DNA from: a virus
DNA: 36,953 nucleotides
Direction: 5' to 3' (one strand)
IMG/VR virus record: IMGVR_UViG_3300037847_005284
Span: 1-36,953 of that record
The notes under the pieces are model-generated. The model did not search any database. It was not told the DNA's origin and worked only from the letters and a program-made list of their open reading frames with translations. Of the stretch, positions 17,991-29,894 are shown in pieces. The translations under genes were made by a program, and so were the position numbers. Each line of letters opens with the position of its first letter. The stretch's first letter is position 1.

Positions 17991-18539
17991 TCAGCGCCGT
18001 CCGCCATCAATAGCAGTCAGTTGTGTGATTGGCACACTAGGGTAGACTGCTCCTAGACTCACACGATAACCGCTCTCAGGTCCCTCACCACGATGCACCA
18101 GTGCTGAGTTGAATATAATTAAACGACCTAATTTCCACTCTACAGTTTCATTTTCAAATACAGTATTGCCACTGTTACCATGACCCATGTAGATAACACT
18201 CAAATAATTATCACTATCAGCATCAGTATGGTCACATCCTGATTGTGATGGGAGTTGAGCATTTAATAGCACACGATGACAATGACCGACGGTCCAGTCT
18301 TTGCATAGATCATTATACATGCAGTGATTAAAATACTCTATCCACCACCACGGTGGCATATCAATAAATTGATCATTTAATACTATTTGAGATCCAAAGA
18401 ATCGTGCTTTCTCGAAATCTGCATATGGTGAGTTGTTATACCTAACAGGCATCATCTCCAGATCTCTTGAGATATGCTTCACCATCCATGATGGAAAGTA
18501 ATCATCAATTACTGTTATCTTTTCCTTGGGATGCATCAT
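17991..18539 (-). CDS. 2OG-Fe(II) oxygenase (prolyl-hydroxylase-like)
   Basis: A 182-residue protein with His-x-Asp in GCDHTDADSDNYLSVIYM (His104, Asp106), a distal His in LIIFNSALVHRGEG (His149) and the 2OG-binding Arg in GYRVSLGAVY (Arg159), the order of P4H-type Fe(II)/2-oxoglutarate oxygenases. It is the last gene of the restriction-modification operon and overlaps the preceding gene by 35 bp. Substrate unknown; nucleic acid is a possibility given the neighbours, but the HxD...H...R scheme is also used on proteins and small molecules. Confidence 0.82.
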   Translation of the reverse strand: MMHPKEKITVIDDYFPSWMVKHISRDLEMMPVRYNNSPYADFEKARFFGSQIVLNDQFIDMPPWWWIEYFNHCMYNDLCKDWTVGHCHRVLLNAQLPSQSGCDHTDADSDNYLSVIYMGHGNSGNTVFENETVEWKLGRLIIFNSALVHRGEGPESGYRVSLGAVYPSVPITQLTAIDGGRR

Positions 18540-18708
18540 ATGCTGAGTCCAATAATTCTTTTAATTCAGTGCATTTCTCAATGCGCTCACTAATACTATC
18601 TTCAAGTGATTCACCATCTAGTGTGGTGTCACCATATCGTTGCATCATTGCTTTTAATTCTGCAAGTGCCTTGGCGACTTTCTCGCCTTCTGCTCTACCA
18701 TCTTTCAT
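18505..18708 (-). CDS. Small charged helical protein (67 aa)
   Basis: MKDGRAEGEKVAKALAELKA, MMQRYGDTTLDGESLEDSIS, ERIEKCTELKELLDSAYDAS, QGKDNSN. Two amphipathic helices separated by a Gly/Asp loop, a likely coiled-coil hairpin. The start overlaps the methyltransferase stop as ATGA (18705-18708). It might be an accessory or control subunit of the modification operon, but it has no DNA-binding HTH, so it is not an obvious C protein. Confidence 0.65.
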   Translation of the reverse strand: MKDGRAEGEKVAKALAELKAMMQRYGDTTLDGESLEDSISERIEKCTELKELLDSAYDASQGKDNSN

Positions 18709-19595
18709 TTTAATAGATCCAATAGTGTTGACTTATCAACAGTCACTGTTTCTGATACTTCACTGACTCTTTTATGTATCAATGCATCATAATCATCATG
18801 CAATTCACATCCGAGATAGTCACGTTTGAGTGATTTGGCGACTGCTGCTGTGGTGCCTGATCCCATGAATGGGTCAAGAATAATATCACCTTCCTCACTA
18901 CCTGCGAGGATTGTAGGGATAATCAATTCACTAGGATATACTGCAAAGTGAGCACCTTTATAAGGTTTAGTCTTCACCTCCCACACTGATTTCCTGCGCT
19001 TTAATTGATTACCATCAACAGTAGGCACCTTAATACTATTTACATCAAAATAATAGTTTTGACTCTTACTTAGTAAGAAAATATACTCATGTGATTTAGT
19101 GCATCTATCCCTGACACTTTCGGGCATTGGATTAGGTTTAGACCAAATAATATCTTGCCTAAGATACCATCCATCCTTACGCAATGCGAATGCCAACATC
19201 CATGGGATGCCAATTAGATCCTTTTCTTTATATCCTTTAAGTTTATTACCTCTTCTTGGATTCTTTCCCTGCGGTAGATCCTGATTAGTTGTTGCTACTG
19301 ATTGTTTAGGCAATGCCTGTCCCTTACCACCACGATAGTTGTAATAACTATCACCGATATTAACCCATAGAGTGCCATCATCAGTCAGGCAATCGCGGAC
19401 ACCACGAAATACCTCGACCAACTGGTCAATAAACTCTTCAGGTGACTCTTCTAGACCTATTTGATCATCTTCCTTACCATAATCGCGTAGACCATAGTAA
19501 GGCGGGGATGTCACACACATCCGTGCCTTATCACCAGATTGTGCAATCTGTTGGAGAGTCTGACGACAATCACCATATAATACAGTATTTCTCAA
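18705..19595 (-). CDS. Type II DNA methyltransferase (beta-class, amino-MTase), partner of the MvaI/BcnI-like enzyme
   Basis: A 296-residue amino-methyltransferase: motif IV TSPPYYGLRDY (residues 29-39) comes before the SAM-binding motif I DPFMGSGTT (241-249), the beta-class order. TSPPY is typical of N4-cytosine enzymes but also occurs in N6-adenine ones. It transfers a methyl group from SAM to the restriction site. Its ATG overlaps the restriction-enzyme stop by four bases, so the two are co-translated, and MvaI/BcnI-family endonucleases usually pair with m4C methyltransferases of this type. Recognition sequence cannot be read from the protein. Confidence 0.9.
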   Translation of the reverse strand: MRNTVLYGDCRQTLQQIAQSGDKARMCVTSPPYYGLRDYGKEDDQIGLEESPEEFIDQLVEVFRGVRDCLTDDGTLWVNIGDSYYNYRGGKGQALPKQSVATTNQDLPQGKNPRRGNKLKGYKEKDLIGIPWMLAFALRKDGWYLRQDIIWSKPNPMPESVRDRCTKSHEYIFLLSKSQNYYFDVNSIKVPTVDGNQLKRRKSVWEVKTKPYKGAHFAVYPSELIIPTILAGSEEGDIILDPFMGSGTTAAVAKSLKRDYLGCELHDDYDALIHKRVSEVSETVTVDKSTLLDLLK

Positions 19596-20287
19596 ATCTC
19601 CTCCTTTGTGAATAACTCTTCCATTTTACCATGATTTACACGAAATGCAGTGCCACGGTTACGGATGCCTATTTGACCATTTTTCAGGGTCTTCCAGGAA
19701 TACATACGAGTTTCAATAATTACATGACCATTTTCAATAGCAGTGCGGACCTTATTCTTATCTCCATTAACATAACGATGTGCTTCATTATAATGGAAAT
19801 ACTCTACACCATCACGTTTTTTAACGTCAGCAATCACCTTAATACATGCAGGGAACTTGTTAGCAAATTCACTGATAACCAACTCCCATGACCATTTAAC
19901 GATGATAGTATCACCATGCATGACTGCAACGTGGTCATCAGTGGTCTTAATGTATAGACCATGCTTATTAGGTTTCAGAGTGATTGTCATTTGTGCTGAG
20001 GTCTCATCAACATATTTGGTATGTTGGAAACCATAGGTTTTAATGTAATCTCTTTGAGATACTACCCACTCACCCTCTTTATTGAGTAGAGTTTGTTTCC
20101 CTCCCTTACCTCTTCGTGCTGTCTTTAATTCATTGCCCTCAATATCTGGTCCTGCAATGTTATTCTCTTGCAATCCCAATTCTTGCTCAAAGGTGTGACC
20201 TACACCAGTATCACCATCACGATGAGACTTAATAAATCCCTTTGCTTTGATGAGAGAATACTTTGATTTGAATGTTAAAAGATCCAT
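19592..20287 (-). CDS. MvaI/BcnI-family type II restriction endonuclease
   Basis: A 231-residue protein whose residues ~23-60 carry the family signature: GDTGVGHTFEQELGLQENN, then IAGPDIEGNELKTARRG. Asp48, Glu53 and Lys55 reproduce the spacing of the catalytic PD...ExK residues of MvaI (which I recall as Asp50, Glu55, Lys57), and Glu34 sits in the TFE segment. The rest is strand-rich with a YFHYNEAHRYV segment. MvaI cuts CCWGG and BcnI CCSGG as monomers; this protein is slightly shorter than MvaI. It is followed at once by its methyltransferase, a complete restriction-modification pair in a lytic-type phage genome. All catalytic residues are present, so it should be active. Confidence 0.85.
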   Translation of the reverse strand: MDLLTFKSKYSLIKAKGFIKSHRDGDTGVGHTFEQELGLQENNIAGPDIEGNELKTARRGKGGKQTLLNKEGEWVVSQRDYIKTYGFQHTKYVDETSAQMTITLKPNKHGLYIKTTDDHVAVMHGDTIIVKWSWELVISEFANKFPACIKVIADVKKRDGVEYFHYNEAHRYVNGDKNKVRTAIENGHVIIETRMYSWKTLKNGQIGIRNRGTAFRVNHGKMEELFTKEEI

Positions 20288-20490
20288 TAGATTGAGTCCT
20301 CACGGTCCATGATTTCGCGTAATCCTGTGATGATCATTGTTTGAATTTGATCCTCAGATAATCCTTTGAAGATACTATATCGTGGGTCATTCTCATCCCA
20401 CTCCACTTGAAATGTGCCGTCATCATTCTCTGTGATAGAGAGACCATCGACATCATTGAAATCCTTTGGGTTGTTGTTGTCGCTTAGCAT
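20287..20490 (-). CDS. Small acidic protein (67 aa) before the restriction gene
   Basis: MLSDNNNPKDFNDVDGLSIT, ENDDGTFQVEWDENDPRYSI, FKGLSEDQIQTMIITGLREI, MDREDSI. Beta hairpin then helix; strongly acidic. The motif 'F-x-V-E-W-D-E-N-D-P-R-Y-S-I-F-K-G-L-S-E-D-Q' is common in small cyanophage proteins of unknown function. Overlaps the restriction-enzyme ATG by one base (TAATG) and the upstream gene by 38 bp. Confidence 0.7.
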   Translation of the reverse strand: MLSDNNNPKDFNDVDGLSITENDDGTFQVEWDENDPRYSIFKGLSEDQIQTMIITGLREIMDREDSI

Positions 20491-20662
20491 CGATTACCTC
20501 AATGTGAGAAATAAAGTGTTTGTAATTCCACCATGCTGTTTGCACTTCCTCATAGGATTGCACAACTTTAACTGACTTGTCAGTGCAGTGGATTTTATAC
20601 CATTGACGATCATAAGGGGCATCACTGGTCTGTGTGAAATAAGGGGCATCATTCGATTTCAT
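20453..20662 (-). CDS. Small hypothetical protein (69 aa)
   Basis: MKSNDAPYFTQTSDAPYDRQ, WYKIHCTDKSVKVVQSYEEV, QTAWWNYKHFISHIEVIDAK, RQQQPKGFQ. The middle (YKIHC...VKVVQSYEEVQTAWW) looks like a small beta-alpha unit. It overlaps genes on both sides (14 bp and 38 bp). Function unknown. An imperfect internal repeat of 'DAPY' near the N-terminus is noted. Confidence 0.66.
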   Translation of the reverse strand: MKSNDAPYFTQTSDAPYDRQWYKIHCTDKSVKVVQSYEEVQTAWWNYKHFISHIEVIDAKRQQQPKGFQ

Positions 20663-20852
20663 AATAGTCCCAGTTGTTGTCGTTAGGATAGTCTACCCAA
20701 AACCAGAAATCAACGTTGTCAATAGCACTGAAAAACCATCGGTCAGGACGTTTGTGCTCAATATACACCAGTGATTTAGAGTTTAGATAGTTTGCGAAGA
20801 TCTCCTTCGCTTTATCACTCTTTGGAGTGACTTTGCATTTACCTCTTAACAT
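20649..20852 (-). CDS. Small aromatic-rich protein (67 aa)
   Basis: MLRGKCKVTPKSDKAKEIFA, NYLNSKSLVYIEHKRPDRWF, FSAIDNVDFWFWVDYPNDNN, WDYYEIE. Basic N-terminus, Trp/Phe/Tyr-rich acidic C-terminus; a ferredoxin-like small domain is plausible. Overlaps both neighbours (7 and 14 bp). Function unknown. Confidence 0.68.
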   Translation of the reverse strand: MLRGKCKVTPKSDKAKEIFANYLNSKSLVYIEHKRPDRWFFSAIDNVDFWFWVDYPNDNNWDYYEIE

Positions 20853-21133
20853 AAGATACCTGCAAGTGGTCCGAGGTTGATCTGCATAGCAGTGTAATTA
20901 CGGGTCTCATCGATATCTACGGGGTCACCCACTGACTTTGCATTTCTTGGCGCATAATACTGGCATTTCTTGGTGTTGTAGAATCCCCAGATCGTAGCAA
21001 CAGGATCAGAAGTATAGTTGTAACTATTGGGATGGTGTAACCAAATAGAAAGCACATTACGCTTAAAGGGTCGTATTTCATAGTGAAATCCTTGGGGTGG
21101 TTTGTGGGGGAAGTTTTCAATAGTTAGATTCAT
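20846..21133 (-). CDS. Hypothetical protein (95 aa) after the second methyltransferase
   Basis: From ATG 21133 (MNLTIENFPHKPPQGFHYEI...), overlapping the second methyltransferase stop as ATGA; the in-frame ATG at 21184 lies deep inside that gene and is unlikely. The protein is strand-rich: HYEIRPFKRNVLSIWLHH..., PVATIWGFYNTKKCQYYAP..., ETRNYTAMQINLGPLAGILC. It could be a small beta-barrel or OB-like domain. Function unknown. Confidence 0.7.
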   Translation of the reverse strand: MNLTIENFPHKPPQGFHYEIRPFKRNVLSIWLHHPNSYNYTSDPVATIWGFYNTKKCQYYAPRNAKSVGDPVDIDETRNYTAMQINLGPLAGILC

Positions 21134-21969
21134 GATAAACGAGTGAGCACATTGTCTTTCCATGGTAGCACACGCTCCACACACATTTGATGATAAGTCT
21201 CATCAATTTCAAATCCAATAAAGTTGCGATCCTCTTCACAACATACCTGAGCGGTAGTGCCTGCACCCATGAATGGGTCGAGAATAACATCACCTTTATT
21301 AGACCATGTTTGAATGTGACCTCGTGCCAACTCTTCAGGCATGGTAGCAGGATGCTTGTAAGATGCCTTGGATGATTGACCAAAACCTCCAGAGTTTTTG
21401 ATCTTCCAAATGTTAGTCCTTACACCATACTCACGGATGACATTACTCTTTCGATTAGGATCATGCATTGTGCCATCCTTCTTTCGAGTCTTAGCATTGC
21501 CAAATGAGGTGTAACCTGCCCATGCATTCTTCTTGTCTTGAATGAGGTTGATTGTCTTAGGTTTACCCTTAGAGAGTATGAAACAATACTCAAAGATTTG
21601 AGTATATCTTACACTCTTAGGACCAGATGCGAATGCTGTGCCTGTCTTCTCATATATCATGGTGTCATGTAGTCTGAGACCACATTGCTCCATAAAATAT
21701 AAGCACTGACGGAAACTAGATCCAGTTTCAGATCCTTTAACCGTGGCATCGTTAACATTCCACATGATAACCCCACCCGCCTTCAATACACGAGTGAGGT
21801 TATCTGCAACTTGTTTGAATACCTCATGATCCCATTTACTGCTGTCGTTGTAGGTCCTCAGGTCATCATATGGGGGAGAGGTGACTACTAAATCAACACT
21901 CTCCTCATCCATAAGTTGCATACCATCGATGCAATTCATGAGGTGTGTATCATTTAGAGAGAGTTTCAT
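21130..21969 (-). CDS. Second DNA methyltransferase (beta-class amino-MTase)
   Basis: A 279-residue protein from ATG 21969 (MKLSLNDTHLMNCIDGMQLM...). Motif IV TSPPYDDLRTY (TSPPY at 30-34) precedes motif I DPFMGAGTT (231-239), again the beta-class order. A target-recognition region with many basic residues lies between (KNSGGFGQSSKASYKHPATM). Sequence differs clearly from the methyltransferase at 18705, so it should have another specificity. It overlaps by 20 bp the upstream gene, a candidate nuclease, which suggests a second restriction-modification pair; if that gene is not a nuclease it is an orphan methylase protecting against host restriction. Confidence 0.88.
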   Translation of the reverse strand: MKLSLNDTHLMNCIDGMQLMDEESVDLVVTSPPYDDLRTYNDSSKWDHEVFKQVADNLTRVLKAGGVIMWNVNDATVKGSETGSSFRQCLYFMEQCGLRLHDTMIYEKTGTAFASGPKSVRYTQIFEYCFILSKGKPKTINLIQDKKNAWAGYTSFGNAKTRKKDGTMHDPNRKSNVIREYGVRTNIWKIKNSGGFGQSSKASYKHPATMPEELARGHIQTWSNKGDVILDPFMGAGTTAQVCCEEDRNFIGFEIDETYHQMCVERVLPWKDNVLTRLS

Positions 21970-22555
21970 ATTCTGTGTGGATGAATTTAGTAGTCTTTCT
22001 GATTTTACCATAGATCGGAGTGATGCAGATTGCATCCTCTTTGTGGATCTTAAGAGTGCTGAAACCGTTGTTGTTTTTACCAGTCTTTGTTACTGAGTCA
22101 GTCCAACCAGTAGCAGGATTCTGAGCGAGTGATAGATCAACAATAGCAGCGAAGATCTCAGGGAATTGGTTACCAGTCTGCACCAACTTGCAAACGAAGA
22201 TCTTATCAACCTTAGTCTTGCTGTGGTTGTTACCAGTAGCGAATGATGATGTGCTGCTGCCTAGTGTCAACTTATTCTCAATCTCTTCTTCAAGAAGAAT
22301 AGCATCATAACCAACTGTCTCCTCAGTGATGTAGTCAACACCTAATTGCTTAGCAGCATCCTCAAGTGCAGGATTGAAGATGTTAGCAAGGAGTTTAGTC
22401 TTGTCAACAGTGTTGTCACCAAAATACTCATCAAGGTCATTGAAACGACCACCAGAGATGATTGAGAGACCCTTCTGAAGACGCTTAGTGCTAAGGTCGA
22501 TTGCTTGAGGGATGATTCTGAAGAGTGCGTCTGCGAGTTGTGTGTTGCTTGTCAT
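21950..22555 (-). CDS. Candidate PD-(D/E)XK nuclease paired with the second methyltransferase
   Basis: A 201-residue protein, first gene of the operon. I do not recognise a named family. Residues 81-95 read VGYDAILLEEEIENK, with Asp84 and Glu93-x-Lys95 in the arrangement of a PD-(D/E)XK active site, followed after a Ser/Gly loop by a hydrophobic strand with Lys (KVDKIFVCKLV), as in many type II enzymes. A helical N-terminus and strand-rich C-terminus (DAICITPIYGK) fit a restriction-enzyme fold. The adjacent, overlapping methyltransferase supports this. A non-nuclease role remains possible. Confidence 0.75.
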   Translation of the reverse strand: MTSNTQLADALFRIIPQAIDLSTKRLQKGLSIISGGRFNDLDEYFGDNTVDKTKLLANIFNPALEDAAKQLGVDYITEETVGYDAILLEEEIENKLTLGSSTSSFATGNNHSKTKVDKIFVCKLVQTGNQFPEIFAAIVDLSLAQNPATGWTDSVTKTGKNNNGFSTLKIHKEDAICITPIYGKIRKTTKFIHTEYETLSK

Positions 22556-22664: not shown

Positions 22665-22994
22665 CTACCGCTGATCAAGGTCGGGTAGCAACTCATTGCC
22701 AGGATGGTCATTGGTGGTGCCTCTGAATGCTTTATGATCATAGAAGTGCTCGTCTTCTATTTCTAGATCATCCCACATATGTGGATAGACACATAGACAG
22801 CACTTATTCATTGGTTGACGAGATCCTGGTGGATTTGGTTTAGTGCCAACACATAGTGTGATGTATTCATCACTGACGAATTCAATGGTGCCTGTCATTT
22901 GACCATATTTGGCAGGCATACCAACCTCAAGTGATTTGAGGATGTTTTTAATTTCTTTAGGCACTGATTCAGAAAGAAAGAGAGGAATTGTCAT
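22665..22994 (-). CDS. Conserved-looking hypothetical protein (109 aa)
   Basis: MTIPLFLSESVPKEIKNILK, SLEVGMPAKYGQMTGTIEFV, SDEYITLCVGTKPNPPGSR..., NKCCLCVYPHMWDDLEIEDE, HFYDHK... The middle reads like an SH3-like barrel (GQMTGTIEFVSDEYITLCV), then a CC-x-C cluster and acidic His-rich loop that could bind metal. It follows the first oxygenase of the cluster with ATGA overlap (22991-22994). Function unknown; a partner of the oxygenases is suggested by position only. Confidence 0.75.
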   Translation of the reverse strand: MTIPLFLSESVPKEIKNILKSLEVGMPAKYGQMTGTIEFVSDEYITLCVGTKPNPPGSRQPMNKCCLCVYPHMWDDLEIEDEHFYDHKAFRGTTNDHPGNELLPDLDQR

Positions 22995-23611
22995 AAGGTT
23001 AATGCAGTATCTTCATAACCAAATGGACCTTTAAGAAAGTAATTAAAGGCACAACTATATCTGTCTTGATCTGTTTCACTAGGTGATACAGAATGCGGCA
23101 GGTGTGATGGAAATATAATAATAGTGCCATCACATGGTTCGATAGGAAACTCCCTTTGGTTAAGGTAGTTACTCTCCATTATATCAGGTTGCACTGTGCT
23201 GGTCAAGTAAGTCGGAAACATAGTTGGCATCCTCATACGAAACTCACCACAGTTTTCAGGCACCCTGATATACAAACAACCGCTAAACATACTGTTGGGA
23301 TGAGTATGCTCAGCGGCGCTGTCACCAATACCATGGTAGTTAATCCATGATGATTGATGTTGTATTCTGTGTCTGCGACTGATTGCTAACGCTTCATGCA
23401 CATATATGTCCATGTGAGTGTCAACAATATCTTTCACGTCAATGTTATTAGATAACCATTGCGTGTCTTGTGACATAAACCCATTCTTTTTATAAGCACC
23501 ATCGAGTGCCATATCTTGCATGGGTGTTTGTTGTGCTCTCTTCAATACATCTGGTTGTAGATCAACAACGTCAATATAAACTGGTTGTGAGAAGAGAGGT
23601 AAAATTTCCAT
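22991..23611 (-). CDS. 2OG-Fe(II) oxygenase (PF13759-like)
   Basis: A 206-residue protein that opens MEILPLFSQPVYI, the usual start of the phage PF13759 family (strand with 'FPTPV'-type motif). Metal ligands in AEHTHPNSMFSGCLYI (His102, His104) and IIIFPSHLPHSVSP (His173), with Arg184 in DRYSCAFNYF for 2-oxoglutarate. Last oxygenase of the cluster, coupled to the 51-residue gene before it (TAATG) and the gene after it (ATGA). Substrate unknown. Confidence 0.86.
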   Translation of the reverse strand: MEILPLFSQPVYIDVVDLQPDVLKRAQQTPMQDMALDGAYKKNGFMSQDTQWLSNNIDVKDIVDTHMDIYVHEALAISRRHRIQHQSSWINYHGIGDSAAEHTHPNSMFSGCLYIRVPENCGEFRMRMPTMFPTYLTSTVQPDIMESNYLNQREFPIEPCDGTIIIFPSHLPHSVSPSETDQDRYSCAFNYFLKGPFGYEDTALTL

Positions 23612-23766
23612 TACAAATGTAGTGTTTCAACTATACTTTTAAGTGATTCATGTTGCACGGGCGTCATGTGTCCGTGCTTCTCATATGCATTCTTTTGATA
23701 TAAAAAGAGAGCGTGCTTTAACAATGACTTCTCAGCAGGAGTCAGGATGGCAGACTTGTTTAACAT
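23611..23766 (-). CDS. Small basic helical protein between oxygenases (51 aa)
   Basis: MLNKSAILTPAEKSLLKHAL, FLYQKNAYEKHGHMTPVQHE, SLKSIVETLHL. All helical with many His and Lys. AAGGA lies about 6 bp before the ATG, and the stop overlaps the next ATG (TAATG). It fills a gap that would otherwise be empty between two oxygenase genes. Function unknown. Confidence 0.65.
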   Translation of the reverse strand: MLNKSAILTPAEKSLLKHALFLYQKNAYEKHGHMTPVQHESLKSIVETLHL

Positions 23767-23809
23767 GGGATGATCCTTCGACAGGGATATCTTAGCGAAG
23801 TCAGATCAG

Positions 23810-24511
23810 TTATGCCATGGATTTCCAGATTTGTTTCACGGTTTCAACATTCAATCCAGCGATACCTCGATCTTCAACGGGTGGCATATTATTTATCTCA
23901 TGATCCACAAATAGTTTATGTCTAGTATCTTTGTCCATATACTTGAATGCCAAGATATATCTATTAAACATAAATTTGGGCGTTGGTGGTCTCCCTGTGT
24001 GTGGGATCCTGCCATCAAATATCACAATTCTACCAGGTTTTGGTGTTACAATACGTTGTGCTTCTAGTTTATCATCATAGAATATAGTTTCACCACCCCA
24101 GTCTGGTCTCCACTCTGCGTTGAGATATACTAATACAGTTTTATTATCATCTACATGATATGGTGCATCACAATGAATTCCTGGTGAATCATTATACTTA
24201 AGCACATTGATATATGATGAGTAACAATCTTCGCGTGGGGGCATATCAGGGCAAACTGCCTCAAGATATGACAACACATCTTTCCACAATGGATTGTCAC
24301 TACCATGTAATCCTGGTGAGTCATACTCTTTGGGATCATCAATAGGACAATAATTATAGAATTGATGTGTCCAATACATCCCTGCCAGATCTAAATTAGG
24401 TGCTGACTCTGTAGGTGGCACATCCACCCTAGTATAAAAATAAGGAAGATGCACCACCTGTGCAAATAGATCCTCATTCACTAGGTTTGTATCATATACT
24501 TTAATTGACAT
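23810..24511 (-). CDS. 2OG-Fe(II) oxygenase (P4H-like)
   Basis: A 233-residue prolyl-hydroxylase-type oxygenase: His-x-Asp in DSPGIHCDAPYHVDDNKTVL (His113, Asp115), a strand WRPDWGGETIFYDD, then VIFDGRIPHTGRPP (His171) and NRYILAFKY (Arg184). Similar proteins in phages are annotated as 2OG-Fe(II) oxygenases with unknown targets. 11-bp overlap with the upstream oxygenase gene. No signal peptide, so it acts in the cytoplasm. Confidence 0.87.
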   Translation of the reverse strand: MSIKVYDTNLVNEDLFAQVVHLPYFYTRVDVPPTESAPNLDLAGMYWTHQFYNYCPIDDPKEYDSPGLHGSDNPLWKDVLSYLEAVCPDMPPREDCYSSYINVLKYNDSPGIHCDAPYHVDDNKTVLVYLNAEWRPDWGGETIFYDDKLEAQRIVTPKPGRIVIFDGRIPHTGRPPTPKFMFNRYILAFKYMDKDTRHKLFVDHEINNMPPVEDRGIAGLNVETVKQIWKSMA

Positions 24512-25118
24512 AATTACCCATGACGTTTAGGGACATGACATATCTATTCTTATCAGTTTTATTGACCTCAGTTTTATGAGTCAACCAACCTGGAAAAAAT
24601 AACACATCATTAGTTTGCACATCGATGTATTCCCAATCCATTTCCATGTCATAATAGTTATAGTCTAGAGGTTCTCCTAGTTTATAAATGGAGTATGGAT
24701 TCTTGACCATAAATCTACCACTACCTTCAGGCACATGTAGATAGGCAGCACATGCCACCGTGACATTTTGATGGTGATGCTCTGCCGTCCATGCACCTTT
24801 AGGATGCACATTGATCCATGATTCTGAGAGCATTTTATTCATTGGAGTGAGATGCCATAGGTCCCAGATTCTATTCACACGCTCATAAAACCATGGCATA
24901 AAATCTTCAAACTCTTCCCACACATGAGGTGGCACTTCTCTACTAATTACGACACTTGTTGTGCCTCCACCCTTCTCCATGGTGTCATACTTATTCTCTT
25001 CAATAACAGTTTTTGCTGCTCCCATGTGTCCCATGGTTCTTGCCTTGAGTGATGACTTGTCAAACTTAAAGTCATACTTACATCGGTGAATGATGGGAAA
25101 TGGGTTATAGGATTTCAT
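24501..25118 (-). CDS. 2OG-Fe(II) oxygenase (PF13759-like)
   Basis: A 205-residue protein from ATG 25118 (MKSYNPFPIIHRCKYDF...), whose start lines up with the N-terminal strand of its relatives; an ATG at 25157 adds 13 residues but overlaps the preceding gene by 53 bp. Ligands: TAEHHHQNVTVACAAYLHVP (His114-116), VLFFPGWLTHKTEV (His181) and Arg192 in NRYVMSLNV. The triple His is unusual; one of them must replace the acidic ligand. Part of the six-oxygenase run. Confidence 0.84.
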   Translation of the reverse strand: MKSYNPFPIIHRCKYDFKFDKSSLKARTMGHMGAAKTVIEENKYDTMEKGGGTTSVVISREVPPHVWEEFEDFMPWFYERVNRIWDLWHLTPMNKMLSESWINVHPKGAWTAEHHHQNVTVACAAYLHVPEGSGRFMVKNPYSIYKLGEPLDYNYYDMEMDWEYIDVQTNDVLFFPGWLTHKTEVNKTDKNRYVMSLNVMGNYVN

Positions 25119-25800
25119 ACCAGTGTCTGTCACGTTGTTTAAGATGGGGATACCCATGTTGTAGGGGAATACTTACACTCAAGCGTCTACCTTCAGGTTG
25201 TGCATGATGATAGCATCTAGCAGGAATGTATAACATATCACCTGCCTTCATTGTAACATCAATCGCACAATCTAGATCATCATGTTGTAGATTCCACTCA
25301 GGAATCTGATTGACAATGTTAGATGCTCTGTTGTGATATACACGCCAGTGTGTCTCTCCATCTACCTGAATGATGAAGTTGTTAGCGAAATCCTCATGGA
25401 TTTTGAATGACTTACAATCTCTCGTGCCAGCATATATGTGCATCGATGATCTAATTGCTGGGAATGTTTCTTCAACACTCCTCATGATTTGCTGGCGTTT
25501 CTTATCAATCTGATCAAAGTTGTTAATGATAACATTGTGACCATGATTCCAACAGTCAACTACATCACGCTGCTCCATGTGTGGACGTGACCAACACCTC
25601 TCGAATTCAGGTAATTGTATAAAAGTACTGGATATTCTATCAATGAATTGAATATCAAAGAATTGTGGATTGTTGAGACAATACTCCACATCTTTATAGG
25701 TAGCATAATACTCTGGATCTGGGATGATCCCCTGCCAGTATTGTGGAGTGTCATCAATACTCCAGTCTTTATCCAGACGTTGTAAAATCGAATAGATCAT
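25105..25800 (-). CDS. JmjC/cupin-4-type oxygenase
   Basis: A 231-residue protein from ATG 25800 (an in-frame GTG lies at 25806). It differs from its neighbours: the core FKIHEDFANNFIIQVDGETHWRVY (His135, Asp137) and TMKAGDMLYIPARCYHHAQPEG (His198/199) is the JmjC/ribosomal-oxygenase (YcfD, NO66-like) pattern. Those enzymes hydroxylate His or Arg side chains of ribosomal and other proteins. A phage enzyme of this type could modify a host or virion protein. It overlaps both neighbours, so it is in the same operon as the PF13759 and P4H types. Confidence 0.85.
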   Translation of the reverse strand: MIYSILQRLDKDWSIDDTPQYWQGIIPDPEYYATYKDVEYCLNNPQFFDIQFIDRISSTFIQLPEFERCWSRPHMEQRDVVDCWNHGHNVIINNFDQIDKKRQQIMRSVEETFPAIRSSMHIYAGTRDCKSFKIHEDFANNFIIQVDGETHWRVYHNRASNIVNQIPEWNLQHDDLDCAIDVTMKAGDMLYIPARCYHHAQPEGRRLSVSIPLQHGYPHLKQRDRHWYEIL

Positions 25801-26425
25801 GCTCACAATAAAAATTCAAATTCAGGATAACCCTATAAGGGTTAGTTGTTGGATTAGATGATGAATGGAATTGATGTCCATCAAATGCAAATAGTTTATT
25901 TGCTTTCGGTGTTGATCTAAAGCACTCATTATATGACTGCTGTCTTGCTTTTGTCCATCTCTCATCTACAGTCCCATATGTGGGATCATCATACTCGTGA
26001 AAGAATACTGTGTCACCACTGCTGTCATTTATGTAAAACAATGCTGCATAATGATCACTCTCATGATCAGTATGTGGTCCGTTATGTGAATCTTTACCGT
26101 TTGCTAGTTGTAGTGCCAACCTCGCACGGAAGAATTGCACGGGATAAGGCAATGCATCACTCACACTATCTAGTAGTGGTTGAAACATGGGCAAATATGG
26201 ACTCTCTACGCCCTCTTGATCTAGTAATACATGAGTAAATCCCAGAGTCTTCTGCTCTTCTGGAATCTCTGAGAATTCTATATCACCAAATCTAGCATGA
26301 CTTGGTGTGTAACTAATATCTTCCGATAGAAAAAACCACGGGAATCCATTCATCCCACCCGTCAGGTCTTGTATACGTTTGAGATAACTAGGAGTTAGCA
26401 GATTGTCTACTTGGATATATTTCAT
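25769..26425 (-). CDS. 2OG-Fe(II) oxygenase (P4H-like)
   Basis: A 218-residue protein starting MKYIQVDNLLTPSYLKRIQDL at ATG 26425; the upstream ATG at 26482 would add 19 residues inside the previous gene. Ligands: SHNGPHTDHESDHYAALFYI (His118, Asp120), FDGHQFHSSSNP (His187) and NPYRVILNLNF (Arg198). The HTDHESDH cluster has spare His residues. Belongs to the P4H subgroup also found at 17991 and 23810. Confidence 0.85.
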   Translation of the reverse strand: MKYIQVDNLLTPSYLKRIQDLTGGMNGFPWFFLSEDISYTPSHARFGDIEFSEIPEEQKTLGFTHVLLDQEGVESPYLPMFQPLLDSVSDALPYPVQFFRARLALQLANGKDSHNGPHTDHESDHYAALFYINDSSGDTVFFHEYDDPTYGTVDERWTKARQQSYNECFRSTPKANKLFAFDGHQFHSSSNPTTNPYRVILNLNFYCEHDLFDFTTSG

Positions 26426-27038
26426 CATAATGATTTGAGAATGCTGTGATATTAAATGAGATAGAGATCCTATCACCATCACCAGCAGATGCTGTCACGG
26501 CATGTTGCAACCATGATGGAAAGATCACCAGTTGATCTACTTCAGGGAATACATCATGCTCTGTCTCATTCATATGCTCCCATCGATGCACGTTGTCACC
26601 ACTACCCCAGAATTCTTTCATCATTGAATAGTTGAGGTCACGAATAAACGTGAGGTGACCATAACAACAATCTGGCAGTTTCAAATAATATGCACCAGAC
26701 AGCACACCACCAGGATGTGAGTGGAGATGATTTGTTGCACCTTTACCATTGATATTGATCCACATGTTGATCATCTTCAATGTGTAATCGTTAAATCCAA
26801 ACTCATCAGCACATACATATGCTCTCTCCATGATCTTATCTCTGATCTCTTTCAATGGATTGTTATCCATCACTCGATCAATGAAATCATGAGATTGCCA
26901 TCCACCATTATTAGATTGTTTACGACCAGCAGGATCTTCTGATTTCACATGATATACGAAATCAGTCAGTGATTGCTTGTCTATACCTACATTATCAAAC
27001 TTCCAAACTGGTGTTGGAAAAATCAATTCAGTCTTCAT
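26388..27038 (-). CDS. 2OG-Fe(II) oxygenase (PF13759-like)
   Basis: A 216-residue protein with the classic N-terminus MKTELIFPTPVWKFDN. Ligands in ATNHLHSHPGGVLSGAYYL (His104, His106, His108) and LVIFPSWLQHAVTASAG (His179), with Arg190 in DRISISFN. First oxygenase of the cluster, coupled by ATGA to the preceding coiled-coil gene (27035-27038). The next oxygenase starts within its 3' end. Confidence 0.88.
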   Translation of the reverse strand: MKTELIFPTPVWKFDNVGIDKQSLTDFVYHVKSEDPAGRKQSNNGGWQSHDFIDRVMDNNPLKEIRDKIMERAYVCADEFGFNDYTLKMINMWININGKGATNHLHSHPGGVLSGAYYLKLPDCCYGHLTFIRDLNYSMMKEFWGSGDNVHRWEHMNETEHDVFPEVDQLVIFPSWLQHAVTASAGDGDRISISFNITAFSNHYDEIYPSRQSANS

Positions 27039-27391
27039 TCCCCTTCGGTGAAAGTAAACTCTCGCTCAGTAACTTCAGGATCAACGTGTCTCTTATACAG
27101 TGACATTGCTTCGACGGCACCAGAGAGTTTATTCATATGATCTCTCTTAGTTTGCAATTCTTCCAAAGAGATCTTTGTGATCGTAGAAGTATAATGCATG
27201 TTGTCAAGTGCTTCTTGCAGTTTGATATACTCTTCTTTAGTATCTTCATACTGCTGAATAAAATTCATAACGAGTTGATCAAATGTAATGAGTCCTTCAA
27301 TAGACCCATTCATCTCACGTTTTTCTTCTTCAGTAGCAACTCCTGCCTGTTGGGCAAGATCTACCTCCATCACGTCTTGTTCTTTAGACAT
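27035..27391 (-). CDS. Coiled-coil protein at the head of the oxygenase operon
   Basis: A 118-residue helical protein: MSKEQDVMEVDLAQQAGVAT, EEEKREMNGSIEGLITFDQL, VMNFIQQYEDTKEEYIKLQE, ALDNMHYTSTITKISLEELQ, TKRDHMNKLSGAVEAMSLYK. Heptad-like from ~50 to 100. Likely scaffold, chaperone or substrate of the oxygenases encoded directly after it. An ACTAAATA octamer lies 25 bp before its ATG. No family recognised. Confidence 0.75.
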   Translation of the reverse strand: MSKEQDVMEVDLAQQAGVATEEEKREMNGSIEGLITFDQLVMNFIQQYEDTKEEYIKLQEALDNMHYTSTITKISLEELQTKRDHMNKLSGAVEAMSLYKRHVDPEVTEREFTFTEGE

Positions 27392-27393
27392 AG

Positions 27394-28269
27394 TTACATA
27401 AACCTCTTGATGTTTTTATTTAGTGCAAGGATTGCTTTGTGTGAAGCAATGCGCTCCCTGAGAGTTTCCATTTCCATAAAAGATTTATGGCGTTGATACT
27501 CCATAATAGCATTGTTTTCAAAATCTGCCTCGTTGGCAGTTTCACAATGGAAATCAATGTTCCTATTACTTAGGAAACTTCTATGCACGGGCACCCACTG
27601 GCAAAGTGGAGTGCCTGCTTTAATTAGATACTCACCCTCTTCAATCTTATGCCAGAATAGTTGTAAGTTAATCTCATATGAATATGAGGGATCAACTACA
27701 CCTGTAGGTGGTGAGAATCTATCTTCATCCCAGTATGGAATAGGCATTTGAATAAACACCAGATCAGGATGTGCTTGCACTCTCCATGGCAATTCTAGTT
27801 TAACTGTCCAGTCAAGTACATCCTTAGTCTGATCAACTAAGTGACGCATACCTTCAGTCTGCTCAGGTATATGTGCTGTGACATATTTACCTGGACTGAT
27901 AGATGTGCAGAATCTCATCTGGGAGATCCACTCAAAGTTTACACCAGTGCCATCAGTCTTGATCAGAATATCAGCAGGGCATGGCAACACATAACCTGAG
28001 TCCATAACATCTCTCAATGCTGGGCAAGTTACGGCGTGCTCATACAATTCAGGTGTGCTATCATTGCCTGCCAATTCAGAAGACATTCTGTCCCAGAGTT
28101 TCTTAACTCTCATAACAGGACAGCGATTCTCTTTATTAGCACGATCTTTTAGTGCTTGTGTCCGCCACTTACGGTGCAGTTTTGCAGCAGGAATCCATGG
28201 TTGCAACTCTGCAACGCCAGGATCGACTGAATAAAATCTAACCCACGGTTTCTTCTTTTTGAAGATCAT
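27394..28269 (-). CDS. Conserved-looking protein of unknown function next to the halogenase
   Basis: A 291-residue soluble protein: MIFKKKKPWVRFYSVDPGVA..., CPVMRVKKLWDRMSS, CPALRDVMDSGYVLPCPADI, LIKTDGTGVNFEWISQMRF..., QLFWHKIEEGEYLIKAGTPL, CQWVPVHRS. The order 'CPALRDVMDSGYVLPCPADILIKTDG ... AGTPLCQWVPV' reminds me of an uncharacterised family (possibly DUF6065) of about this size. Strand-rich, no signal peptide. It overlaps the halogenase gene by 32 bp, so it is translated with it; it could supply or bind the substrate. Function unknown. Confidence 0.8.
   Translation of the reverse strand: MIFKKKKPWVRFYSVDPGVAELQPWIPAAKLHRKWRTQALKDRANKENRCPVMRVKKLWDRMSSELAGNDSTPELYEHAVTCPALRDVMDSGYVLPCPADILIKTDGTGVNFEWISQMRFCTSISPGKYVTAHIPEQTEGMRHLVDQTKDVLDWTVKLELPWRVQAHPDLVFIQMPIPYWDEDRFSPPTGVVDPSYSYEINLQLFWHKIEEGEYLIKAGTPLCQWVPVHRSFLSNRNIDFHCETANEADFENNAIMEYQRHKSFMEMETLRERIASHKAILALNKNIKRFM
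27417..27424 (-). promoter_or_regulatory. Candidate late promoter (ACTAAATA) for the oxygenase operon
   Basis: Minus-strand ACTAAATA, the same variant as at 32868, 25 bp before ATG 27391 with AGAGG in the leader. It lies inside the 3' end of the preceding gene. If used, the six oxygenases are made late together with the virion proteins. Confidence 0.42.
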
Positions 28270-29857
28270 AAATGTTGTCCCTCAGGTACTCATAGTGTGA
28301 TGGGAGTTTGTCAACCCAGTCCATCATGACTTTACGGTCTTGCTGATATTTAGCATGTATATCTGCAAGTGTTTCTTCCTCTTCTGCTCTGTCTTCTTCA
28401 CTCATAGCAGCGAGTCTTTCTTTGTATGATCCTTCAGCAAAAGGACGATAACCTTGACCAGCAGCAATGTAGATAGATCCACTATGTTGCTCTAAGTTAT
28501 AGAATGCAGAATCTAAACCCTCAAGTAATACTACTGTATTTGCATGAGCAACTCTAGTTGAGTGTCTCCATAGAGGATCAATATCAAAATCGATATTAGT
28601 GCAGTCTTTCCAATACTGATTGTCATCTCTCTGACTGAGAGCATAATGAATTGCAACAAAGCATTTCATTGCCTCAATCATATTATCACATCCATAGTTG
28701 AATGCATCAACATCCATTCTAGCATAGAATCCCTGTCTTTTCTCAAGAGTATCACACAACAACAGGATATTCTCATGGGTTGTCATCAGTCCAGTAGACT
28801 CCAGAGGTTCTAGGAATGCATATGACAGACCAATACCAACAACATTCTTAATCCATGCTTTATTACGCTTGCCATGTCTGATATCAATCTTGCGTAGTTT
28901 AGCATCTTTGGCAATTTCAGGCGTATATCTTTCACTGAGATACTTTCTAAACTCTATCTCTGCCTCACACTCATTGATATAATCTGACGAGTAAACATAT
29001 CCTGTGCCAACACGATGCCACAGTGGGATATTCCATACCCAACCAGCATCCATTGCAACACAATCAGTATATGTTTCCATCTGATTCTCACGATCAGAGT
29101 ATGGAATCTGTGTCGCTAGTGCTGTGTCATTGAATAGTTTATCTTTGAATGAGATAAACTCACTACCCATGTGCTGCTCAAGTAACAGTGACTGAAAACC
29201 TGTGCAGTCAATATATAAGTCTGCTTTGATTAGTCCATCCTGTGTGGTAACCAGTGCGTCAATACTACCATCAGGATTCTTCATCACCTTCTCAATCTTA
29301 CCCTTGAGATGTAACACACCATTAGGGATGCAGTGATGATCTCTCAAATAATTACCAAACAATCCTGCATCAAAATGATATGCAGTATCTCTATCCATAC
29401 TGTATGTGCAGTTAGGAATACCACCGTCAGCAATCTTACATTGATCTGCTAAGTATGTCTGACTATTTGCAAAGTTTGCAAATTGATCGGGTGGATACTT
29501 ATCTACACCATACTTACACCCCAACTCAAAGTATCGTTGTAGTTGGTCTTTATAGTCAAAGAGATCAAATTCACCAAATGGATATTGGAATCTCTCTCCT
29601 TCACCATGTCTGAAATTCTTAAACGCAATCGATGTCTTATAAGTTGCGTTGCAATGTGGCATCCAGTCTTTATCTTCCAACTCCATACGTCTCAGGAATC
29701 GGTTGAAATGTCCTAGTGTAGATTCACCAACACCAATCGGTCCTTTATCATCTTCAATGAGACCAATTTGCATGTGTGGAAATGTCTTGGATAGCATTGC
29801 TGCTGCCATCCAACCACTGCTACCACCACCAACAATAACTATAGATTCAACTTTCAT
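28238..29857 (-). CDS. Flavin-dependent (tryptophan-type) halogenase
   Basis: A 539-residue protein from ATG 29857 (MKVESIVIVGGGSSGWMAAA...). Motifs: FAD-binding GxGxxG-type loop GGGSSGW (10-16), the Trp-halogenase WxWxIP motif as WVWNIP (273-278), the segment CNATYK whose Lys74 aligns with the catalytic Lys79 of RebH/PrnA, and LEPLESTG with the conserved Glu. These enzymes use FADH2, O2 and chloride or bromide to form HOCl and a lysine chloramine that halogenates an aromatic substrate. All catalytic elements seem present; the substrate-binding half diverges. No flavin reductase is encoded nearby, so a host one must serve. A terminator ends 5 bp before the ATG. Confidence 0.9.
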   Translation of the reverse strand: MKVESIVIVGGGSSGWMAAAMLSKTFPHMQIGLIEDDKGPIGVGESTLGHFNRFLRRMELEDKDWMPHCNATYKTSIAFKNFRHGEGERFQYPFGEFDLFDYKDQLQRYFELGCKYGVDKYPPDQFANFANSQTYLADQCKIADGGIPNCTYSMDRDTAYHFDAGLFGNYLRDHHCIPNGVLHLKGKIEKVMKNPDGSIDALVTTQDGLIKADLYIDCTGFQSLLLEQHMGSEFISFKDKLFNDTALATQIPYSDRENQMETYTDCVAMDAGWVWNIPLWHRVGTGYVYSSDYINECEAEIEFRKYLSERYTPEIAKDAKLRKIDIRHGKRNKAWIKNVVGIGLSYAFLEPLESTGLMTTHENILLLCDTLEKRQGFYARMDVDAFNYGCDNMIEAMKCFVAIHYALSQRDDNQYWKDCTNIDFDIDPLWRHSTRVAHANTVVLLEGLDSAFYNLEQHSGSIYIAAGQGYRPFAEGSYKERLAAMSEEDRAEEEETLADIHAKYQQDRKVMMDWVDKLPSHYEYLRDNIYDLQKEETVG

Positions 29858-29861
29858 AGAC

Positions 29862-29894
29862 AAAAAAATAGAGCAGTTATGTCCTCTGCTCTAT
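29862..29894 (-). terminator. Rho-independent terminator abutting the halogenase start
   Basis: Minus-strand hairpin ATAGAGCAG / CTGCTCTAT (29868-29876 with 29886-29894; 9 bp stem, 9-nt loop) followed by a T run (29862-29867). The halogenase ATG is only 4 bp beyond it. It should stop most transcripts arriving from the tail genes, leaving no room for a promoter before the halogenase. Confidence 0.87.

Follow-up and report, generated by a model that had tools for sequence, protein, structure and literature searches.

Type II restriction enzymes 'rarely occur on bacteriophages' (PMC4081073), and among lytic viruses the precedent for carrying type II endonuclease-methyltransferase pairs is known from the chlorella viruses, of which PBCV-1 carries the CviAI and CviAII systems (PMC7248222, PMC4081073). 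PBCV-1, however, infects eukaryotic algae, and its two systems are N6-methyladenine systems that act at GATC and CATG. T4-like cyanophages lack denA, denB and ndd, and the means by which they degrade host DNA has been called undescribed (PMC2984593); during infection by one of them, Syn9, the host DNA is degraded within hours (PMC7852597). We analysed a virus record, IMGVR_UViG_3300037847_005284, over its whole length of 36,953 nucleotides (hereafter the window; a 37-kb record rather than a full genome). It carries a gene for a nuclease of the MvaI/BcnI family (R1) joined to one for a DNA methyltransferase (M1) and, 0.8 kb upstream, a second candidate pair consisting of a predicted nuclease (X2) and another methyltransferase (M2). 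In our favoured reading, R1 and M1 form a true type II restriction-modification module encoded by the phage, in which R1 would cut unmodified DNA and M1 would protect the DNA of the phage, and we put the probability of this at about 0.72. We infer the activity of R1 and M1, their common specificity and their role from sequence.

The closest described relatives of R1 are the bacterial enzymes R.MvaI and R.BcnI (PF15515; PDB 2OAA, 2ODI), and by family, predicted active site and modelled fold R1 is a full-length MvaI/BcnI endonuclease. A reading of the window made earlier from its letters and open reading frames (the sequence-only reading) had recognised an MvaI/BcnI signature in this gene, and suggested a search with the PF15515 profile and a structural comparison to MvaI; both bear it out. 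The profile matches R1 across 217 residues (115.9 bits against a cut-off of 25; profile positions 4-227 of 227), and R.MvaI is found among PDB sequences with E=4.5e-11 from the single sequence and 4.5e-27 from a profile, followed by R.BcnI. When the predicted structure of R1 was compared with the PDB using Foldseek, MvaI and BcnI were the sole significant matches (E from 1.7e-11 for MvaI to 2e-7), in a model with a mean predicted local distance difference test score (pLDDT) of 71 and a weak N-terminal third. No model in PHROGs or NCBIfam matches R1. The TFE and NNIAGPDI motifs are both present, and D48, E53 and K55, which correspond to the D-x4-E-x-K site of R.MvaI, are invariant across 20 distinct phage R1 sequences with identities down to 33%. 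R1 also carries the MvaI-type alanine in GTAFR where BcnI has a histidine in GPHLR, a position which we take to be the reader of the central base pair.

M1 was correctly assigned to the beta class of methyltransferases at the outset, with TSPPY (residues 29-33) preceding the S-adenosylmethionine (SAM) motif DPFMGSGTT (at about residues 241-249). It matches phrog_67 (E=1e-65) and the PADLOC type II methyltransferase model (E=8e-104) as well as PF01555 (E=7.4e-53). Given matches of this order (PF15515, E=3.7e-33 for R1; PF01555, E=7e-53 for M1 and 3e-41 for M2), the identities of these three proteins are not due to chance. The 4-bp overlap between R1 and M1 reported by the sequence-only reading is exact (Table 1). 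In the distinct pair loci that we examined the two genes share either TTGA or ATGA at the stop-start junction, and in most of them a run rich in purines that looks like a ribosome-binding site lies within the 3′ end of R1, so that translation of M1 is probably coupled to that of R1 from the same message. It had also been claimed that the endonuclease gene precedes its methylase under one visible shared promoter and that timing control must therefore be sought elsewhere. The order of transcription is as stated, but the promoter did not survive scrutiny, since sigma-70-like matches occur at chance frequency (19, against 20.0 +/- 4.3 in shuffled sequences). There is probably no timing problem to solve in any case: the incoming virion DNA would carry its methyl marks from the start, and sparing the host is unnecessary.

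Table 1. Coordinates of the two pairs and their predicted functional elements in the window
Feature	Position	Strand	Basis
R1, MvaI/BcnI-family type II restriction endonuclease, 231 aa, ATG start	19592..20287	-	PF15515, PDB and Foldseek matches
R1 catalytic codons D48, E53, K55	20123..20146	-	Invariant in 20 distinct sequences; align with D-x4-E-x-K of R.MvaI
Likely ribosome-binding site for M1, AGGAGGAG, within R1 just upstream of the overlap	19598-19605	-	Sequence
TTGA stop/start overlap of R1 and M1, 4 bp	19592..19595	-	Sequence
M1, N4-cytosine/N6-adenine DNA methyltransferase, 296 aa, beta motif order, TTG start	18705..19595	-	PF01555, phrog_67, PADLOC
X2, predicted PD-(D/E)XK endonuclease, 201 aa, phrog_11812, formerly 'hypothetical'	21950..22555	-	AlphaFold2 (AF2) model, PDB fold matches, invariant residues
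X2 predicted catalytic codons D84 to K95	22271..22306	-	Alignment; model strands 85-87 and 90-98
M2, N4/N6 DNA methyltransferase, 20-bp overlap with X2	21130..21969	-	PF01555, E=3.3e-41

Comparison across viral loci establishes the linkage of the two genes. Relatives of R1 were found in 36 such loci, many of them near-copies that together represent about 20 distinct R1 proteins, and M1 lies directly downstream in 33 of the 35 that are informative (L032 is truncated where its contig ends; L033 and L036 lack M1). The pair also occurs in the single-cell virus AG-345-L05 (Kyanoviridae), and a contig filed under an archaeal metagenome-assembled genome (L099) shares 81% identity with the window across 6 kb and holds both pairs in the same order. 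As R1-M1 recurs in many independent contigs and in one single-cell virus, we could reject a chimeric assembly as its source. All complete R1 frames are open, and R1 is under purifying selection: pairwise ratios of nonsynonymous to synonymous substitution rates are 0.03-0.18 for nine comparisons and reach 0.38 for the two closest sequences. Distances between R1 proteins correlate with those between their M1 partners (Mantel r=0.43, 1/9999 permutations), R1 diverging faster than M1. The intact frames, the selection and the invariant active site all speak against the idea that M1 and M2 serve to shield phage DNA from host enzymes while R1 and X2 ride along as passengers or are left over from captured bacterial systems. 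That M1 is often found alone, and that the presence of R1 changes repeatedly along the M1 tree, would fit such an anti-restriction role; bacterial R1 homologues, however, bring no M1-like methylase with them, and we consider this explanation improbable.

The same comparisons show that phages acquire and lose R1-M1 as an accessory cassette. In two otherwise unlike genomes the DNA similarity starts at the R1 start codon (L021) or near it (L002) and stops within M1, whereas at a locus where R1 is missing (L152) it starts at M1; it is these boundaries that define the cassette. At least five changes between the paired and the orphan state are forced on the M1 tree. Cassette boundaries, differing contexts and the faster divergence of R1 might also be expected of a selfish, addiction-like cassette that spreads between phages without benefit to them. 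Addiction, however, requires a surviving cell lineage, for which a lytic phage offers little scope, and M1 is often found without R1, so that we regard pure selfishness as very improbable.

The partner of R1 is not the one its bacterial relatives use. Cellular R1 homologues (29-38% identity) mostly adjoin a methyltransferase of 418-461 amino acids in which the SAM motif, DPYCGTGT, precedes TSPPY; M1 has the reverse motif order, is thus of another class, and aligns with the bacterial partner over only 76 residues (E=0.001). M1 instead belongs to a phrog_67-type group which is common without R1 in cultured cyanophages: the orphan enzymes of P-SSM2, P-SSM4, P-SSM7, S-SSM5, P-HM1 and P-TIM40 are 62-69% identical to it, and no R1 homologue was found in those phage records. 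We therefore infer that the phage module is an MvaI-type nuclease re-partnered with a methyltransferase of phage lineage rather than a bacterial system simply captured whole. Separately, one 39-kb viral contig (G018, L116) contains an N4/N6 methyltransferase gene overlapping that of a protein distantly similar to MvaI (27% identical to the enzyme of L036); many 4-base palindromes, including GATC and AGCT, are absent from this contig.

Site statistics suggest that the specificity of R1 is most likely CCWGG. Two related contigs (G002, L080-L081; G017, L231-L232) each encode a lone MvaI-like enzyme, the two enzymes being 70% identical to each other, and no methyltransferase was detected in either contig by searches with PF01555, PF00145, PF02086 and PF05869. 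Neither contains a single CCWGG site (20.6 and 19.9 expected, respectively), while CCSGG is present at normal frequency in both; among sites with a substantial expectation, CCWGG alone is absent from G017 and CCWGG and one other from G002. In phages that carry the pair the observed-to-expected ratio of CCWGG is lower than in R1-less cyanophages (0.91 against 1.33), with p=0.004 for a site named beforehand, uncorrected and tied for lowest among 168 patterns. The window itself keeps 39 CCWGG sites, so protection would be needed, and retention at a lowered frequency in pair-bearing phages agrees with an MvaI-type site whose protection comes mainly from M1. The absence of CCGG from the window was considered as a mark of R1 specificity and discarded, because the site is equally absent or nearly so from all the cultured cyanomyoviruses tested, none of which carries R1. 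This scarcity is an observation in its own right: 50-kb stretches of 15/15 cultured cyanomyoviruses (L223-L228, L230, L243-L250), like the window, hold 0-1 CCGG sites where 43-126 are expected, independently of restriction genes, and GGCC is strongly depleted too.

We regard X2-M2 as a probable second module, independent of R1-M1 but similar in its logic, whose endonuclease belongs to a family that had gone unrecognised. The sequence-only reading had offered it as a possible second pair, with a 20-bp overlap that proved exact, and the case is now stronger than was claimed. The AF2 model of X2 is confident (pLDDT 87.7, predicted template modelling score 0.85) and PD-(D/E)XK-like, and the best matches to it in the PDB are type II restriction enzymes, with NaeI (probability 0.99, E 3e-3) and EcoRV leading and PvuII and DpnI below them; matches in a viral library include proteins named as phage restriction endonucleases. 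D84-x8-E93-x-K95 is invariant in the X2 alignment and, by strand assignment in the model, D84 adjoins strand 85-87 while E93 and K95 lie in strand 90-98. The spacing resembles that of NaeI, whose active-site residues are presumably D86/D95/K97. The likeness is nevertheless confined to fold and spacing: a sequence search of the PDB with X2 gave no significant match, and Pfam, NCBIfam and PADLOC no significant family, leaving only phrog_11812 (function unknown), and X2 was found only in cyanophages and related viral contigs. M2 has the same beta motif order as M1. The two genes occur together in 17/17 matching phage records, some of which are duplicate GenBank/RefSeq entries, and M2 is 82-84% identical there; these records include Syn9 (in which X2 is gp61), P-TIM40, S-MbCM6, S-H35, S-RIM4 and S-MS29. 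As for a target, GTAC is strongly depleted in phages with X2 (median ratio 0.17 against 0.73, p=1.6e-5), also in contigs that have X2 without M2, and among the palindromes tested only its extension TGTACA ranks ahead of it; this is a hint that GTAC is the site of X2, although phylogeny could also explain the depletion. An attempt to read a purged site from two X2-bearing contigs (G010 and G011) was dropped, as no site is absent from them. Elsewhere, one viral contig (L185, 3704-5313) has two different N4/N6-type methyltransferase frames overlapping head to tail.

It is conceivable that X2 is not the restriction partner of M2 at all but another PD-(D/E)XK nuclease, acting in repair, recombination or host takeover, which happens to neighbour it. 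At two of the loci without M2 (L068 and L069) X2 adjoins a UvsW-like helicase gene instead. We think this unlikely in view of the consistent company of M2 in the phage records, the overlap of the two genes in 24/33 viral loci and the restriction enzymes that head the fold matches.

Several observations weigh against the interpretation of the two pairs as working modules. The E-values of the X2 model against the PDB are modest (3e-3 and above), and nine environmental loci carry X2 without M2. The lower CCWGG ratio of pair-bearing phages is a mild, uncorrected effect confounded by phylogeny; as for the two related contigs that lack the site, its purging could have been the work of a host restriction enzyme. 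A T4-like contig of 127 kb (G001, IMGVR_UViG_3300005611_000007, L073-L079) holds an R1 relative (56-57% identity) in its replication module, yet avoids neither CCWGG (102 sites) nor CCSGG, and the same four methyltransferase profiles detected nothing in it; its methylase may lie in a missing part, or its DNA may be modified otherwise. The widespread orphan relatives of M1 show that M1 can serve without R1, and the patchy distribution of R1 across phages is a poor fit to an essential role in host degradation, which argues for R1 as an accessory weapon and against its being the only enzyme of degradation. R1, with X2, might serve mainly to destroy unmodified co-infecting phages, orphan M1 then conferring immunity against rivals that carry R1. 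The gain and loss of R1 on a persistent M1 lineage would suit this, as would the R1-less cultured cyanophages, in which CCWGG is as frequent as expected or more so (43-107 per 50 kb) and many of which have an orphan M1; an archaeal virus endonuclease has likewise been proposed to act in virus exclusion (PMC10101028). Host DNA would, however, be cut as well, so that sequence gives little means of telling the two roles apart, and we view competition as the main function as possible but not probable. Host degradation and phage exclusion are compatible, and neither rules out the other.

The setting is that of a T4-like cyanophage, as had been supposed. The genes of the window include gp6/gp25-type baseplate wedge genes and those for a PAAR-type protein, a UvsW-like helicase, a tryptophan halogenase and a tail fibre, and its DNA is partly similar to that of Kyanoviridae, P-TIM40 being the closest cultured relative. 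Transcription on the minus strand runs through X2 and M2, a few small phage genes, and then R1 and M1. Several genes resembling 2-oxoglutarate (2OG)-Fe(II) oxygenases cluster beside the halogenase gene (22991-29863). Three window proteins (17991-18539, 23810-24511 and 25769-26482) match PHROG family 274 ('DNA endonuclease V') and look like 2OG-Fe(II) oxygenases (HxD...H...R), two of them also matching the oxygenases of phrog_81; these motifs cast doubt on the denV label used in cyanophage annotation.

In the module as we picture it, R1 would cleave unmodified DNA in the infected cell, most likely at CCWGG, and M1 would methylate the same site in phage DNA. Because virion DNA would enter already methylated from the previous round, no delay of R1 would be needed, and R1 and X2 could be made at once, unlike the situation of a bacterial restriction-modification system that has to become established in a naive cell. 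As natural substrates we envisage the host chromosome, with recycling of its nucleotides, and unmodified competing phages. A bolder proposal is that stacked, interchangeable cassettes of this kind, including X2 with perhaps GTAC as its site, replace denA and denB and drive competition between phages, orphan methyltransferases being immunity genes or relics; this we offer as speculation that is rather doubtful. What the analysis does reveal is an MvaI-type enzyme which recurs, re-partnered, in many environmental phage contigs, beside a second pair whose 'hypothetical' endonuclease is present in cultured phages. For host-DNA breakdown in T4-like cyanophages, which have none of denA, denB and ndd, the R1 cassette and the X2-M2 pair of Syn9 offer specific candidate genes, and the purging of CCWGG from the two contigs with a lone enzyme suggests a second way in which a virus may tolerate its own restriction enzyme.

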